From the NCBI GenBank assembly GCA_029553545.1, contig JAKPKU010000059.1:1-39811 (forward strand): DNA of 39,811 bases, written 5' to 3'. Origin of the DNA: Candidatus Cloacimonadota bacterium (GTDB lineage Bacteria > Cloacimonadota > Cloacimonadia > Cloacimonadales > WRIO01). Shown here one piece after another: positions 2,198 through 39,811 of the stretch. The position numbers and the translations under genes were made by a program. Position 1 is the stretch's first letter. Every line of letters begins with the position of its first letter. The notes under the pieces were generated by a model. It worked only from the letters and a program-made list of their open reading frames with translations, did no database searches and was not told the origin of the DNA.

Positions 2198-2698
2198 ATG
2201 GTCAAGAGAATTTATTATTTATTTTTATTATTACTATTTTTAAGTGGATGTTCTTACTCAGTTTATACCAGCGAATACCCACATTTGAAGACTATTCTCG
2301 TCCAGCCCTTTGAGAATAAAACCGTAGAATACACCCTTGGGCAAGACGCTCAGAATAGCCTGGTAAACGCCTTTATGAAAGATGGGCGACTGAAGATTAA
2401 TACCCAAAATCCTGATGCAGAGCTGAGAGGCGAAATTTTAGACTTTCGTAAAAGAATATTCTCGTATGATAATGCGGGCAGTGTAGAAGAATATCAAATT
2501 CAAATACTTTTTTCTGTCACTTTTTACGATTTAAAACTAAATAATGAGATTTATGCAAACAAAAACTTACTTCTTACTCGAACTTATAACCCCACTTCTG
2601 ATAATATTAATGTCGAAAAAACAGAAGAAGAGGCTATCAATAAGATATTAAGTAATCTTTTTGATGATATTATTAAAAATACATTGGAGAACTGGTGA
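2198..2698 (+). CDS. lptE: LptE-like LPS-assembly lipoprotein
   Basis: Likely outer-membrane lipoprotein LptE, the plug partner of LptD in lipopolysaccharide insertion. The 166-residue protein starts with a lipoprotein signal peptide whose lipobox is LSGC (Cys at about residue 18). The mature part has the family pattern: an early segment reading TILVQPFENKTVEY, which is typical of LptE, then a region with alternating beta strands and RTYNPTSDN near the C-terminus. Length fits the family. It is first in a plus-strand operon and overlaps the next gene by 4 bases (GTGA). There is no Shine-Dalgarno sequence before the ATG. No LptD is present in the window. LptE is poorly conserved in sequence, so the call rests on lipobox, length and pattern. 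Confidence 0.7.
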   Translation: MVKRIYYLFLLLLFLSGCSYSVYTSEYPHLKTILVQPFENKTVEYTLGQDAQNSLVNAFMKDGRLKINTQNPDAELRGEILDFRKRIFSYDNAGSVEEYQIQILFSVTFYDLKLNNEIYANKNLLLTRTYNPTSDNINVEKTEEEAINKILSNLFDDIIKNTLENW

Positions 2699-3468
2699 GA
2701 ATTAATAAGTTTTTGGCTGAATGCCAATTAGGATCACGACGCAAAGTCGAAGAATTTATACTCAATGGCGATATCAAAATTAATGGCGATATTTGCACAG
2801 ACCTCGGAAAACAAATAAACCCCGAAGAAGATATAGTACTCTATAAAAATAAAAGAGTAAAACCCGATAATGAACAGATCTTTATCCTCTTGAATAAACC
2901 ACCTAATTATATTGTGACAAAAAAAGATGAATTTGATCGCAAAACAATATACAAGCTTTTACCTGAATTTGCACTAAAGCTCGATCCCGTCGGTAGACTC
3001 GACTATGCCTCGGAAGGACTGCTTTTGCTCACCAATGACGGAGACCTCGCATACAAAATCACACACCCAAAGTATATGATGCAAAAGACATACTTTGTCC
3101 ATGTAAATGCCATGCTTACTCATGATGAAGTGCAAAAACTGCGCGATGGTATAATCATCGATGGTAAAATAACTCTCCCTGCACAAGTCTTTATGAAAAA
3201 AGTCGGCGATAAATACTGCGAACTAAAAATGACCATCTCCGAAGGTAGAAATAGACAAATTAGACGCATGATCGAAGCACTGGGACACGAAGTTACAAAA
3301 TTAAAACGTGTACAGATAGGAGATATCACCTTAGATAATATTCCCACTGGAATGTGGCGCTATCTTACCCCTGCTGAAATACTCTACCTCGTAAAAAAAA
3401 CATCAAGAATACCACTAAATAAACCTCTAAGGAAGAAAAATGAAAATAGGAATAAGCGGACTACCTAA
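2695..3468 (+). CDS. rluB: RsuA/RluB-family pseudouridine synthase
   Basis: Isomerises a specific uridine in ribosomal RNA to pseudouridine; the RluB-like subfamily (23S rRNA) is the best guess but RsuA/RluE/RluF cannot be excluded. An N-terminal S4 RNA-binding domain (residues 1-60, INKFLAECQLGSRRKVEEFI) is followed by the catalytic domain. The signature GRLDYASEGLLLLTNDGDL (about residues 100-118) contains the catalytic Asp; the usual Thr after GRLDxx is Ser. The second family motif EGRNRQIRRM is present near residue 183. The start is GTG at 2695 and overlaps the lptE stop by 4 bases, implying translational coupling. The last 29 bases overlap ychF. A basic tail (LRKKNENRNKR) is created by this overlap. 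Confidence 0.88.
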   Translation: MRINKFLAECQLGSRRKVEEFILNGDIKINGDICTDLGKQINPEEDIVLYKNKRVKPDNEQIFILLNKPPNYIVTKKDEFDRKTIYKLLPEFALKLDPVGRLDYASEGLLLLTNDGDLAYKITHPKYMMQKTYFVHVNAMLTHDEVQKLRDGIIIDGKITLPAQVFMKKVGDKYCELKMTISEGRNRQIRRMIEALGHEVTKLKRVQIGDITLDNIPTGMWRYLTPAEILYLVKKTSRIPLNKPLRKKNENRNKRTT

Positions 3469-4516
3469 ATCCGGAAAAACAACAATATTTAATGCTCTTA
3501 CAAAACTCGAAGCAGATACAAGTTTATATGACCAAAAAAGCGAACCAAACTTGGGCGCCGTGCAAGTCTTTGACGAACGTATAAAACACTTGTCTGATAT
3601 ATATAAGCCAAAAAGCACTATCTATGCTAATATAGAATTCATCGACTTCCCTGCTATGGCAGAAGATAGCCAAGACCATCAATTCCTCAGTAGTAACTCT
3701 ATGACCTTGCTCAAAAACACCGATGCACTGGCTATTGTTTTGAGAAACTTTGCCGATACAATTCTCGATGAAACGTATCATAAAGCCGACCCAGTAAAAG
3801 ACTTCAAGGCTATCTATGAACAATTCATCCTCTCTGACCTGATCTCCGCAGAGAAAAGGTTAGAAAAGATTGAGCTCGGCTATAAAAGAGGAATAAAAAC
3901 ACCCGCTCTGCAATTGGAAGAAAGTGTCCTCAAAAGAATTATCGAGACGCTTAATGAGATCAAGCCTATTTCAAGTATCGAATTAAATGACGATGAACAA
4001 AAAAGCATACGGGGCTTTCAATTTCTCAGCCTAAAACCTATCCTAATCGTCTTAAACTCAGATGAAAATAATCTCTTTCAAAATGATAATGTCATCAATG
4101 AATTGAAAAACTTTGGCGAATATATCGAGTTCGCTGGTAAATTTGAAATGGAATTGGGTAAGCTCGACGAAGAAGAAGCAAAGATGTTTATGGATGATAT
4201 GAATATCAAAGACTCTGCAATAAATGTCTTTATCAAAGCAGCATATGCAACACTCGGACTGATCAGCTTTTTTACCGTCGGTACAGATGAAGTGCGCGCT
4301 TGGACAATCAATAAAGGTGACCCCGCACTCGAAGCTGCAGGTAAGATACACTCTGACTTGGCAAGAGGCTTTATCAGAGCAGAAACCTTTAATTATAATG
4401 ACTTCAAAACTTATGGCTCAGAAAAAGCAATCAGAGAAAAAGGACTCTTTCGACTCGAAGGCAAAACGTATGTCGTGCAAGATGGCGATATTATTAATGT
4501 GAGATTTAATGTCTAA
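3440..4516 (+). CDS. ychF: YchF/OLA1-family nucleotide-binding protein, divergent G motifs
   Basis: Homologue of the ribosome-associated ATPase/GTPase YchF. The P-loop is GLPKSGKTT (residues 7-15; family norm GLPNVGKST). The C-terminal TGS/DUF933 region is highly typical: FFTVGTDEVRAWTI, the segment ending GKIHSDLARGFIRAE, and a terminal VVQDGDIINVRFNV. The G4 motif appears as LNSDEN, close to the YchF NxxE form. The G3 motif is abnormal: DFPAMA in place of DIAGLV, so the glycine of DxxG is missing, and the following GxGNKFL stretch is not recognisable. Length (358) is near the usual 363. The ATG at 3440 has AAGGAAG upstream, inside the end of the rluB-like gene (29-base overlap). It overlaps ftsK by 8 bases. 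Confidence 0.85.
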   Translation: MKIGISGLPKSGKTTIFNALTKLEADTSLYDQKSEPNLGAVQVFDERIKHLSDIYKPKSTIYANIEFIDFPAMAEDSQDHQFLSSNSMTLLKNTDALAIVLRNFADTILDETYHKADPVKDFKAIYEQFILSDLISAEKRLEKIELGYKRGIKTPALQLEESVLKRIIETLNEIKPISSIELNDDEQKSIRGFQFLSLKPILIVLNSDENNLFQNDNVINELKNFGEYIEFAGKFEMELGKLDEEEAKMFMDDMNIKDSAINVFIKAAYATLGLISFFTVGTDEVRAWTINKGDPALEAAGKIHSDLARGFIRAETFNYNDFKTYGSEKAIREKGLFRLEGKTYVVQDGDIINVRFNV

Positions 4517-16701: not shown

Positions 16702-16890
16702 TGTGGATATGAGTATAAGTCCAGTAATACATTGTTTAAGTTATTGTTAAAGAATAGAATATGCTTTTTGAAATGCTGTGAATAAGCTGTGTATAATTTG
16801 TTATGATACAAAAAGTTATTCACAAAATAATTTAAAGAAAATATATTTTCCTTCTTATACACATTGTTCCACTCATATTCATGTGTATAA
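16702..16890. other. oriC candidate, dnaA-downstream half: DnaA-box cluster
   Basis: In a 296-bp non-coding gap there are five exact matches to TTATNCACA: TGTGAATAA 16777-16785, TGTGTATAA 16788-16796, TTATTCACA 16816-16824, TTATACACA 16855-16863 and TGTGTATAA 16882-16890. A 8-of-9 match to TTATCCACA (reverse strand) is at 16702-16710. Sites occur in both orientations with very AT-rich sequence between 16825 and 16854, which could be the unwinding element. Together with dnaA next door this is a strong origin candidate. No genes are in the gap; an open frame across it is low-complexity. Confidence 0.75.
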
Positions 16891-16949
16891 GTATAGATCT
16901 TGTATTTATTATCTTTAATTGTATGATAATTGGTACAATACAAAATAGT

Positions 16950-18275
16950 TTATCCTTTAATATCTTTGATTAGCTTTTCGATTTCAATTCTGAGATCATT
17001 GTCATTTTTAAACTTATTTTCAATCATTCTTTTTGCGTGTAATACTGTTGTATGGTCATTTTTCTTATAATAATTGGCAATATCTTTCAGTGATATGCTC
17101 GGAATGAGTAGATTAGATAGATACATTGCTATTTGTCGTGGAAATGCGATATTAGTTTTACGCGTTTTATCCAGCATTTGTGAAGGTGTGATATTGTAAT
17201 AATTACATACTTTTTGAAAAATATTATCCATACTAATATCTTTAACTCTTTCTACCAATAAATCTGTCAATATTTCTTTAGCAATTTGAATATCGATATT
17301 ATCTGGATTCATATCATTATAGGAAGAATAGGCGAGCAGTCTGATGAGAGAGCCTTCCAGCTTTCTTACATTATCAGAGATATTTTCTGCGATAAATTCT
17401 ATTACTTCGTCTGCTAATTGAATATGTTCAGCTTCGCTTTTTTTCTTAAGAATAGCTATACGAGTTTCGAAATCGGGGCTCTTTAAATCAGCAAGTAGTC
17501 CCCATTCAAAGCGTGTAACGAGGCGGTTTTCGAGGTCTGGTATATCTTTAGGTGGTCTATCAGAAGTCATTACAATCTGCTTTCTATTTTCATATAAGGC
17601 ATTAAATGTGTGAAAAAACTCTTCTTGTGAGCCTTCTTTTTTTGATAAAAAGTGGATGTCGTCGACTAATAAAACATCTATTTTTCTGTACTTATTTCTA
17701 AATTCTTGTGTTTTATTAGATCTAATAGCTTCAATCATCTCATTTGTAAACTGTTCTGTAGTGATATAAAACACGTTCTTTTTGGAATTTGTTTCTACCA
17801 GAAAATTGCCAATAGCCTGCATCAAGTGCGTCTTTCCCATACCAGATTCGCCATAAATAAATAGTGGATTATATGTAGTACCAGGCGATTCAGCGACTGC
17901 CATAGAAGCTGAGTGAGCAAAGTTATTGCTTTTACCCACGACAAATTCAGTGAAATTGTATTTAGGATTTAACTTACTCGCTTCGAGATGCTTTTTATGA
18001 GCCTCTGAGTGAAGGTCGTTTTGTTCTTTTGGCTGGTAATTTTCAGTAAATTTAATGCTAAATGATTTATCATATTCAGTTTCTGCAATCTCTGTTATAG
18101 TATTGACATAAGTTTTATTCAAGTAATCTGCTGCCAGCTTTGTGGGCACATATATTACCATCGAATTGTCATCAAAATCGATCAGCTGTGTTTCATTAAA
18201 CCATGTTTTGAAGCTCTGTTGGTTAATTCTTTTTTCTAATTGATCCATTATAACTTGCCATACATCCTGATCCAT
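16950..18275 (-). CDS. dnaA: chromosomal replication initiator DnaA
   Basis: AAA+ ATPase that binds DnaA boxes and opens oriC. All four domains are visible in 441 residues: domain I (1-75, WQVIMDQLEKRINQQSFKTW), a short linker, the AAA+ domain with Walker A GESGMGKTH (142-150) and Walker B VLLVDDIHFLS (Asp 205-206), an arginine-finger region (SRLVTRFEWGL-like NRLVTRFEWGL), and the DNA-binding domain IV with the DnaA signature DHTTVLHAKRMI near 415. The ATG at 18275 has GAGAGGG upstream. The gene is flanked by DnaA boxes on both sides. dnaN, recF and gyrB do not follow, so the classic dnaA operon is broken up here. Confidence 0.98.
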   Translation of the reverse strand: MDQDVWQVIMDQLEKRINQQSFKTWFNETQLIDFDDNSMVIYVPTKLAADYLNKTYVNTITEIAETEYDKSFSIKFTENYQPKEQNDLHSEAHKKHLEASKLNPKYNFTEFVVGKSNNFAHSASMAVAESPGTTYNPLFIYGESGMGKTHLMQAIGNFLVETNSKKNVFYITTEQFTNEMIEAIRSNKTQEFRNKYRKIDVLLVDDIHFLSKKEGSQEEFFHTFNALYENRKQIVMTSDRPPKDIPDLENRLVTRFEWGLLADLKSPDFETRIAILKKKSEAEHIQLADEVIEFIAENISDNVRKLEGSLIRLLAYSSYNDMNPDNIDIQIAKEILTDLLVERVKDISMDNIFQKVCNYYNITPSQMLDKTRKTNIAFPRQIAMYLSNLLIPSISLKDIANYYKKNDHTTVLHAKRMIENKFKNDNDLRIEIEKLIKDIKG

Positions 18276-38783: not shown

Positions 38784-39022
38784 CTAAAAACCCTTTCTTT
38801 ATTTTTACCCTAAATAATAGCATAAAAAACTATTAAAATACATCCTTCTGTAAGGTTGTCTTTTTTTGCATTAATGTCAAGATAAATCTTTAATAATAAA
38901 ATATATTATTCAAAATACCATATTTAAACCACTTTTTCTTTACCTTTATATCTGTATTAATTATTTATAATACCATTTTTTTGTCAATGAAAAAAGAAAA
39001 ATGAGGAACTTTTCTCCGCCTA

Positions 39023-39261
39023 ATGTAGGGGCGAGCTTTGCTCGTCAGAAAACTGACCAACTCGCTTGCTTCGCTTCTGGCTACCTTTAAAAAAACCTTT
39101 CACGAATGTGAAAGTACCTAACCTTCGACGAAGTCGAAGTACCTAACTTTTCACGGAGTGAAAATACCTAACCTTTTCGGAGAAAAGCACCTCACCCGCA
39201 GCGAAGCGAGGACCAAATAATGTAGGGGCGAGCTGCGCTCGTCAGCCAGCGACGAAGTCGC
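39023..39261. repeat. array of mini-hairpins with GNA-type loops
   Basis: Tandem units of 23-25 bases. Stems and loops are: CTTTCAC-GAAT-GTGAAAG (39097-39114), CTTCGAC-GAA-GTCGAAG (39123-39139), TTTTCAC-GGA-GTGAAAA (39148-39164), CTTTTC-GGA-GAAAAG (39173-39187), a block containing GCGAAGC (39195-39217), and GCGAC-GAA-GTCGC (39249-39261). Linkers between them are TACCTAAC or close variants (39115-39122, 39140-39147, 39165-39172, CACCTCAC 39188-39195). CGAGC-TTT-GCTCG (39032-39044) and GCGAGC-TGC-GCTCGT (about 39228-39242) carry related stems. Arms differ but each stays self-complementary. Confidence 0.85.
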
Positions 39262-39345: not shown

Positions 39346-39370
39346 AGGTAATTTCACTGCGTGAAATTGA
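39346..39370. repeat. 25-bp exact repeat, copy A
   Basis: AGGTAATTTCACTGCGTGAAATTGA; identical to 39476-39500. It contains ATTTCAC-TGC-GTGAAAT (39351-39367). On the minus strand this reads ATTTCAC-GCA-GTGAAAT followed by TACCT, the same arrangement (GNA loop, TACCT linker) as the array at 39.1 kb. Confidence 0.9.
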
Positions 39371-39413: not shown

Positions 39414-39435
39414 ATACAAATAAGGATATTTGTAT
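39414..39435. repeat. hairpin with AGGA loop, copy 1
   Basis: ATACAAATA-AGGA-TATTTGTAT; nine perfect base pairs, loop AGGA at 39423-39426. Confidence 0.85.
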
Positions 39436-39475: not shown

Positions 39476-39500
39476 AGGTAATTTCACTGCGTGAAATTGA
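39476..39500. repeat. 25-bp exact repeat, copy B
   Basis: Identical to 39346-39370, 130 bases apart and same orientation. Confidence 0.9.
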
Positions 39501-39540: not shown

Positions 39541-39550
39541 AGCTTCACTG

Positions 39551-39570
39551 CACAACTAAGGATAGTTGTG
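39551..39570. repeat. hairpin with AGGA loop, copy 2
   Basis: CACAACTA-AGGA-TAGTTGTG; eight perfect pairs, loop AGGA (39559-39562). Its arms differ from copy 1, but the core TAAGGATA is shared. A degenerate relative on the minus strand lies at 39272-39295 (GGTACAA ... TTGTACC, core CTAAGATAG). Confidence 0.85.
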
Positions 39571-39576
39571 GGTACG

Positions 39577-39604
39577 TTTAAAAAAATCTACCGATTTTTT
39601 TAAA
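39577..39604. repeat. 12-bp A/T hairpin, terminator-like
   Basis: TTTAAAAAAATC (39577-39588) and GATTTTTTTAAA (39593-39604) with loop TACC. Low GC makes it a weak terminator; it may be another member of the hairpin region. Confidence 0.65.
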
Positions 39605-39607
39605 ATA

Positions 39608-39624
39608 CCCGCAGCGAAGCGAGG
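39608..39624. repeat. dispersed hairpin repeat, short copy
   Basis: CCCGCAGCGAAGCGAGG, identical to the block at 39195-39211 and one base different from 31118-31134. Confidence 0.85.
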
Positions 39625-39792
39625 ATTAAAATGGCTTTTGTCTCTACAAGTTGGTATGCGAAGGTGTACAATTAGAGGGTGTTGAATAAAGCCGTTATAT
39701 TGACAATAAAAGCATTCATAAAGTTCAGATTTTGATTTTCATTTTTAGAGAGGTCGTAATTATTCAAAAATAACAAAAAAGGATAAGAAAAA

Positions 39793-39811
39793 ATGTCTTT
39801 TTACAATAATA
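39793..39811 (+). CDS. start of a gene running off the right edge
   Basis: ATG at 39793 opening MSFYNN, preceded by AAAAAAGGATAAG, a plausible ribosome site nine bases upstream. Only six codons are visible, so nothing can be said about the product. Confidence 0.35.

Follow-up and report, generated by a model that had tools for sequence, protein, structure and literature searches.

What kind of element keeps its pairing, its loop and its linker while the sequence of its stem changes from one copy to the next? The question is posed by four mini-hairpins that stand in tandem at positions 39097-39187 of the window, the whole 39,811-nucleotide stretch analysed, which is the entire contig C104 of a 2.88-Mb genome in 268 contigs. 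As an earlier, sequence-only reading had claimed, their stems differ, all of them are perfectly paired, their loops are of the C(GNA)G kind, and they share the linker TACCTAAC, of which the array holds three exact copies and a fourth that reads CACCTCAC. The spacing is as regular as that reading held, but the steps measure 26, 25 and 25 bases and not the 23-25 that it gave. In this report, we argue that the array is very probably a mosaic cluster of REP-like elements, the units of which would be recognised and moved by a RAYT encoded in the same genome.

The cluster is larger than first described, running from 39021 to about 39630 (Table 1). The outlying units already listed by the sequence-only reading are in place, namely GCGAC-GAA-GTCGC at 39249-39261 and the reverse-strand ATTTCAC-GCA-GTGAAAT with TACCT at 39346 and 39476, 130 bp apart. 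To these we add GTAGGGGCGAGC hairpins at 39021 and 39218, a hairpin with an AGGA loop (39414-39435) and, at 39542-39620, a 79-nt module with a three-way junction. Within the 1,011-bp intergenic region are 10 hairpins with a stem of at least 5 and a loop of 3; dinucleotide shuffles give 2.0, and never more than 7 in 500. The window itself closes, at 39676-39811, with the end of a multicopy insertion sequence that has 9 near-identical full-length matches, mostly at contig ends.

Table 1. Features of the repeat cluster in the window (positions are those of the window).
Feature	Position	Strand	Remarks
Family B hairpin, copy 1	39021..39048	+	GTAG tag, GGCGAGC-TTT-GCTCGTC; same hairpin on both sides of RAYT-B
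Family A hairpin CTTTCAC-GAAT-GTGAAAG	39097..39114	-	tag GTAC on the - strand
Linker TACCTAAC	39115..39122	-	reads GTTAGGTA on the - strand, which contains the GTA tag
Family A hairpin CTTCGAC-GAA-GTCGAAG	39123..39139	-	stem type A1
Linker TACCTAAC	39140..39147	-	
Family A hairpin TTTTCAC-GGA-GTGAAAA	39148..39164	-	stem type A2, tag GTAT
Linker TACCTAAC	39165..39172	-	
Family A hairpin CTTTTC-GGA-GAAAAG	39173..39187	-	stem type A3
Array-end module E, CCGCAGCGAAGCGAGG	39196..39211	-	covaries with CCGCAACGAAGTGAGG elsewhere
Family B hairpin, copy 2	39218..39245	+	loop TGC
Hairpin GCGAC-GAA-GTCGC	39249..39261	.	12 strand-counted matches in a 0.8-Mb sample
C unit 1	39346..39368	+	GGTA tag + AATTTCAC-TGC-GTGAAATT
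Hairpin ATACAAATA-AGGA-TATTTGTAT	39414..39435	-	part of the 130-bp unit; loop reads TCCT on the opposite strand
C unit 2	39476..39498	+	130 bp past C unit 1
Module M, three-way-junction palindrome	39542..39620	.	GCTTCACTGC-[ACAACTA-AGGA-TAGTTGT]-GGGTA-[hairpin]-TACCC-GCAGCGAAGC; fold -25 kcal/mol, z -7.8
Array-end module E, second copy	39607..39630	-	overlaps the end of module M

The cluster is one of many. About 1.07 Mb of genome stretches were read, and patterns were searched for in the whole genome. Units bounded by two linkers occur 63 times in the 2.88 Mb and the family B (GTAGGGGCGAGC) hairpin 87 times, with no match to the reversed-pattern controls in either case; the C-unit hairpin (AATTTCACTGCGTGAAATT) gives 45 strand-counted matches genome-wide and none with its pattern reversed. 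In 802,574 sampled bases, TACCTAAC is present in 98 copies, a fourfold excess over the mean of 25 for permuted octamers, and a hairpin of at least 5 bp follows 57 of these copies immediately, compared with 2.2% for control octamers. Just 9 of 299 sampled elements lie inside open reading frames of at least 120 aa, though 87% of the sample is coding. Contigs picked by number, not by matches, contain 6 clusters in 267 kb, which extrapolates to about 65 scattered clusters genome-wide. Family A has in common with REPs that it is a short palindrome, extragenic and of high copy number; a search of Rfam returned only a chance-level snoRNA match, below the gathering score. The copy count and the test of intergenic placement that the sequence-only reading had advised show numerous copies, placed between genes and confined to this genome.

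The arms of the family A stems change in concert. Perfect stems are found in 79 of 99 linker-bounded units, against 30 when the right arms are dealt at random. Both-sided changes affect 4 of 7 positions in the 7-bp stems and 2 of 6 in the 6-bp stems, and in two stem alignments, into which the linkers were entered as consensus and the stems as found, the covariation score is 0.34 (0.16 when shuffled) and 0.21 (0.06 when shuffled). Compensatory stem change with a kept loop, as originally proposed, is thus real; independent changes are few, because the stem types were copied and about seven main types make up most copies. Neither a want of excess over controls nor a want of paired changes, which the sequence-only reading had named as grounds against itself, is found: the excess is large, both for the hairpin context of TACCTAAC and for the two-linker units, and paired stem changes are present.

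What stays constant is bound to one strand. On the GTTAGGTA strand, the loops of 100 linker-bounded units are TTC (62), TCC (18) or TGC (15) in the main, with a final C in 96, and the feet are GTAC in 73 and GTAT in 13. Read on this opposite strand, the unit is GTAN-stem-TNC loop-stem-GTTAG, which is the layout of a REP-like hairpin preceded by a 5' tag. Hairpins with d(GNA) triloops are exceptionally stable. The fold energies do not favour the GNA-loop strand (-5.7 vs -6.1 kcal/mol), and the units fold on both strands. Since the tag is strand-fixed, the strand with the TNC loop is probably the one recognised. Nearly all hairpins of an array share one orientation, and the arrays follow a loose grammar: module E (CCTCGCTTCGCTGCGG), a 6-bp-stem hairpin, 7-bp-stem hairpins and, last, a start module, for example AAAAATC-NNNN-GATTTTT. 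The order and number of modules vary between arrays on one linker, i.e., the arrays are mosaics. Since the strict 5' GT[AG]G tetranucleotide is lacking at the hairpin foot, we file family A as a REP-like variant and not as a canonical REP. Family B does carry a 5' GTAG within 0-2 nt of its hairpin; its structure is GTAG, GG and then GGCGAGC-TNT-GCTCGTC, with 7 pairs that include one G-T.

A search of the genome for Y1 transposases, in line with the earlier advice to look for a RAYT or TnpA, yielded one IS200 TnpA and one weak second match, RAYT-A. This single-copy gene (C113:15446-16096) encodes 216 aa that score 80.5 bits against the model for REP-associated tyrosine transposases (NCBIfam NF047646, REP_Tyr_transpos; cut-off 80); the protein has no match to the IS200 model. 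Its sole significant match in the PDB is TnpAREP (4er8), in an alignment that covers W165-N190, and an HVH motif is present in the translation. Further, W165, Q166, H172, R175, Y186 and N190 match functional residues of E. coli TnpAREP (PMC6006769). RAYT-A thus has the HUH motif, the catalytic Tyr and the WQ..H..R residues for guide binding that belong to an HUH/Y1 enzyme of this family. On its 3' side lies module M, related to that at 39542-39620 of the window; on its 5' side are a partial M, then C units, and then a TACCTAAC array about 640 bp from the gene start, so that the module directly touching the gene is M and not the array. Neither a GTAGGGG hairpin, in the 2.6 kb read around the gene, nor a TnpB or IscB gene beside it was found. 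The IS200 TnpA was considered as a partner and rejected: at about 2690-4300 of locus L071 (C186), an IscB gene is directly followed by the IS200-type TnpA gene, and the sequence read beside them contains no such repeats.

The only repeats on either side of a second gene, RAYT-B (C20), are GTAGGGGCGAGC hairpins. RAYT-B scores 60.3 bits against NF047646, below the cut-off of 80, and we call it RAYT-like by its flanks and motifs. A second copy of RAYT-B is broken into two pieces, one at an end of contig C62 and one at an end of C130, and B hairpins lie beside each piece; the break in C62 carries the end of a multicopy insertion sequence, the same end as that which closes the window. Both RAYT genes thus sit inside clusters of matching hairpins, RAYT-A in A-type modules and RAYT-B in B hairpins. 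These flanks place each gene within its own repeat family, in agreement with PMC6006769.

Two further kinds of sequence were observed in the vicinity of the repeats. At 16860-17220 of locus L055, adjoining the RAYT-A repeats, short tandem TGTGTTGCAG-type repeats are interleaved with a longer unit that contains GTGTGCCATGGAACTGTTTGCCAAAG, and CAACACAC runs resembling them stand beside other clusters. C-terminal coding ends of the C-type-lectin/FGE-like kind, with many variable codons, are found at positions 1-210 of locus L023 (C166), C16:43676-43778 and C75:303-411. These three related copies, with 73-100% identity, resemble the target regions of diversity-generating retroelements, and two of them are close to repeat clusters.

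The enzyme is widespread in the phylum, and the array is not. Of 125 genomes of the phylum, 84 encode a RAYT-A homologue; two-linker units are confined to the present genome (none in 124 relatives), and the family B hairpin is missing from all 20 relatives' genomes searched. The nearest genome belongs to another species. In a genome of the same genus, which is about 72% identical at the protein level, RAYT-A and the repeats are both absent, and two orthologous intergenic regions lack arrays. At 29 RAYT-A homologues, 96 GTAN-tagged hairpins stand within 450 bp of the gene (4.0/kb, vs 0.2/kb beyond 700 bp); they are present at 22 of the 29 loci and on both sides at 18. Their tags are GTAA (42), GTAG (37), GTAC (15) and GTAT (5), from which we take the tag of the clade to be GTAN, and their foot-strand loops are mostly GCC or TCCN. 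One locus from a related genus (L248 of G003, 1060-2350) has a RAYT-like gene with head-to-tail 30-bp units, GAAATC-GGA-GATTTC-TGCTACGG, on both sides, about 15 and 7 in number, and further hairpin copies within the gene. Read on the other strand, this unit has the tag GTAG and the loop TCC, the same geometry as the window array with a single stem. Beyond the phylum, the search of the genome collection returned distant RAYTs only. A literature search under the presumed phylum name found no publication on the REPs of this group.

We propose that each unit would serve as a single-strand recognition site, composed of a 5' GTA tag within the linker GTTAGGTA, a short, perfectly paired stem in which the sequence is free, and a loop of the form TNC. 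Biochemical work on group-3 TnpAREP found that perfect stems are required, that the stem sequence is largely free and that the loop bases are critical; a GTAC tag was still used, with the cutting site changing predictably (PMC8266576). Because the arrays display this very pattern, with stems free but paired and with tag and loop fixed to one strand, we infer that RAYT-A most likely reads tag and loop on single-stranded DNA and moves the units. The stem would act as a spacer in which any sequence is allowed so long as it pairs, and the linker would hold both the tag and the probable cutting site, with RAYT-A cutting in or near it. Units transferred between sites could then be inserted as whole hairpins in head-to-tail order, and mosaics would arise by their shuffling. 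A second REP family, presumably served by RAYT-B, is formed by the GTAGGGGCGAGC hairpins of the same cluster.

RAYTs act on single-stranded REPs, and the earlier suggestion of a single-strand recognition element is for this reason compatible with our proposal, in which recognition itself is putative. Its alternative suggestion, a REP-like mobile repeat, gains support from the number of copies, their intergenic placement, their restriction to this genome and the RAYT genes within matching hairpins. Most likely, the clusters spread through the genome by way of a RAYT that cuts single strands. A stricter version, in which RAYT-A reads nothing except the tag and the triloop, the stem is a free "barcode", and single units enter the linkers so that arrays grow in the manner of an integron, is a tentative idea that we consider doubtful; our literature search found no description of such growth for REPs.

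The closest known system comprises the GTAG-tagged REPs and their RAYT/TnpAREP (REPtrons, group 3, perfect palindromes; PMC3733652, PMC6006769, PMC8266576). In common with these are the short perfect hairpin, the 5' GTA-tag, the conserved loop and the complementary stem changes, as well as the many intergenic copies, the clusters, the RAYT gene within matching repeats and the one REP family per RAYT. PMC2817692, PMC3733652 and PMC6006769 already describe REPs and RAYTs, their complementary stem changes and clusters, and the pairing of one family with one RAYT. What marks the present case as a variant is the GTAN tag and the stringing of heterogeneous hairpins head to tail on a fixed linker. 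Thus, family A has GTAC or GTAT where REPtrons have GT[AG]G; its head-to-tail arrays, rare elsewhere, combine differing stems with one fixed 8-bp linker and with start and end modules; and two REP families are mixed in one cluster. The bacterial interspersed mosaic elements (BIMEs) of enterobacteria are likewise intergenic mosaic clusters of REP subtypes, but their REPs alternate in orientation, according to PMC2817692, whereas all units of family A face in one direction. RAYT-A also recalls the TIR-flanked RAYTs (TIRtrons/TIRYT, PMC3733652) in being bordered by a long palindromic module, M, which has GCTTCGCTGC ends and is also dispersed; unlike theirs, M carries AGGA/TCCT-loop hairpins beside GGTAC tags and accompanies arrays of tagged hairpins. 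With the IS200/IS605 insertion sequences, the system shares an HUH/Y1 transposase whose substrates would be hairpin ends in single-stranded form, each preceded on its 5' side by a guide sequence. It differs in that the RAYT-A gene is present once, that its product matches the REP family model instead of that for IS200, and that neither TnpB nor IscB lies beside it.

Could the arrays be passive? One ancestral composite cluster might have been spread once, by a RAYT or an insertion sequence, and its tandem units altered since only by slippage and template switching; replication slippage and template switching within hairpins would then keep the stems perfect with neither selection nor an enzyme. 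The stem types are few and follow a similar order in many clusters (E, A3/A4/A5, A2/A6, A1, S), as if whole arrays had been copied, and imperfect stems do occur (20 of 100 units). We nonetheless judge this explanation unlikely. Module order and number vary; template switching should sometimes flip the loop, yet almost every unit keeps TNC on the strand of the tag; and in the related genus, a head-to-tail array with a different stem flanks a RAYT.

It is more improbable still that the hairpins are mainly RNA or DNA control elements of neighbouring genes, such as terminators or mRNA stabilisers, with mobility secondary. Such roles have been reported for REPs elsewhere (PMC3733652, PMC6006769), and intergenic units that fold on both strands would suit them. 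The clusters show no preference for gaps between convergent genes, however (8 convergent, 13 divergent and 26 co-directional; background 40, 58 and 211), the window cluster stands upstream of a sigma-factor gene and not at the gene's end, and absence from the relatives argues against a conserved regulatory role. A structured array with variable stems and a fixed core also brings to mind the attC sites of integrons, and C191 does encode a tyrosine recombinase. That the units are attachment sites, whether for an integron or for some other tyrosine recombinase system, is nevertheless highly improbable: the best IntI score is 79.9 bits against a cut-off of 265, so that the array does not qualify as one of attC sites, the units measure about 25 bp and follow one another with no intervening cassettes, and the linked enzyme is a RAYT. 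The analogy with phage N4 hairpin promoters, drawn by the sequence-only reading from the likeness of small purine-triloop hairpins, finds no support here and is very improbable, as these repeats are multi-copy, dispersed, intergenic, chromosomal and tied to RAYT genes, and the neighbouring window genes scanned offer no phage context.

A REP-like mosaic moved by RAYT-A would bear on how such repeats multiply, for the spread of REPs is hard to show when most REP families have one stem. Here, a fixed tag and loop on varying stems separate, by natural variation, the parts that a RAYT would read from those that need only to pair. The GTAN tags found across the phylum broaden the known range of guide sequences. 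Finally, two RAYT/REP pairs in one genome may provide an internal test of specificity.
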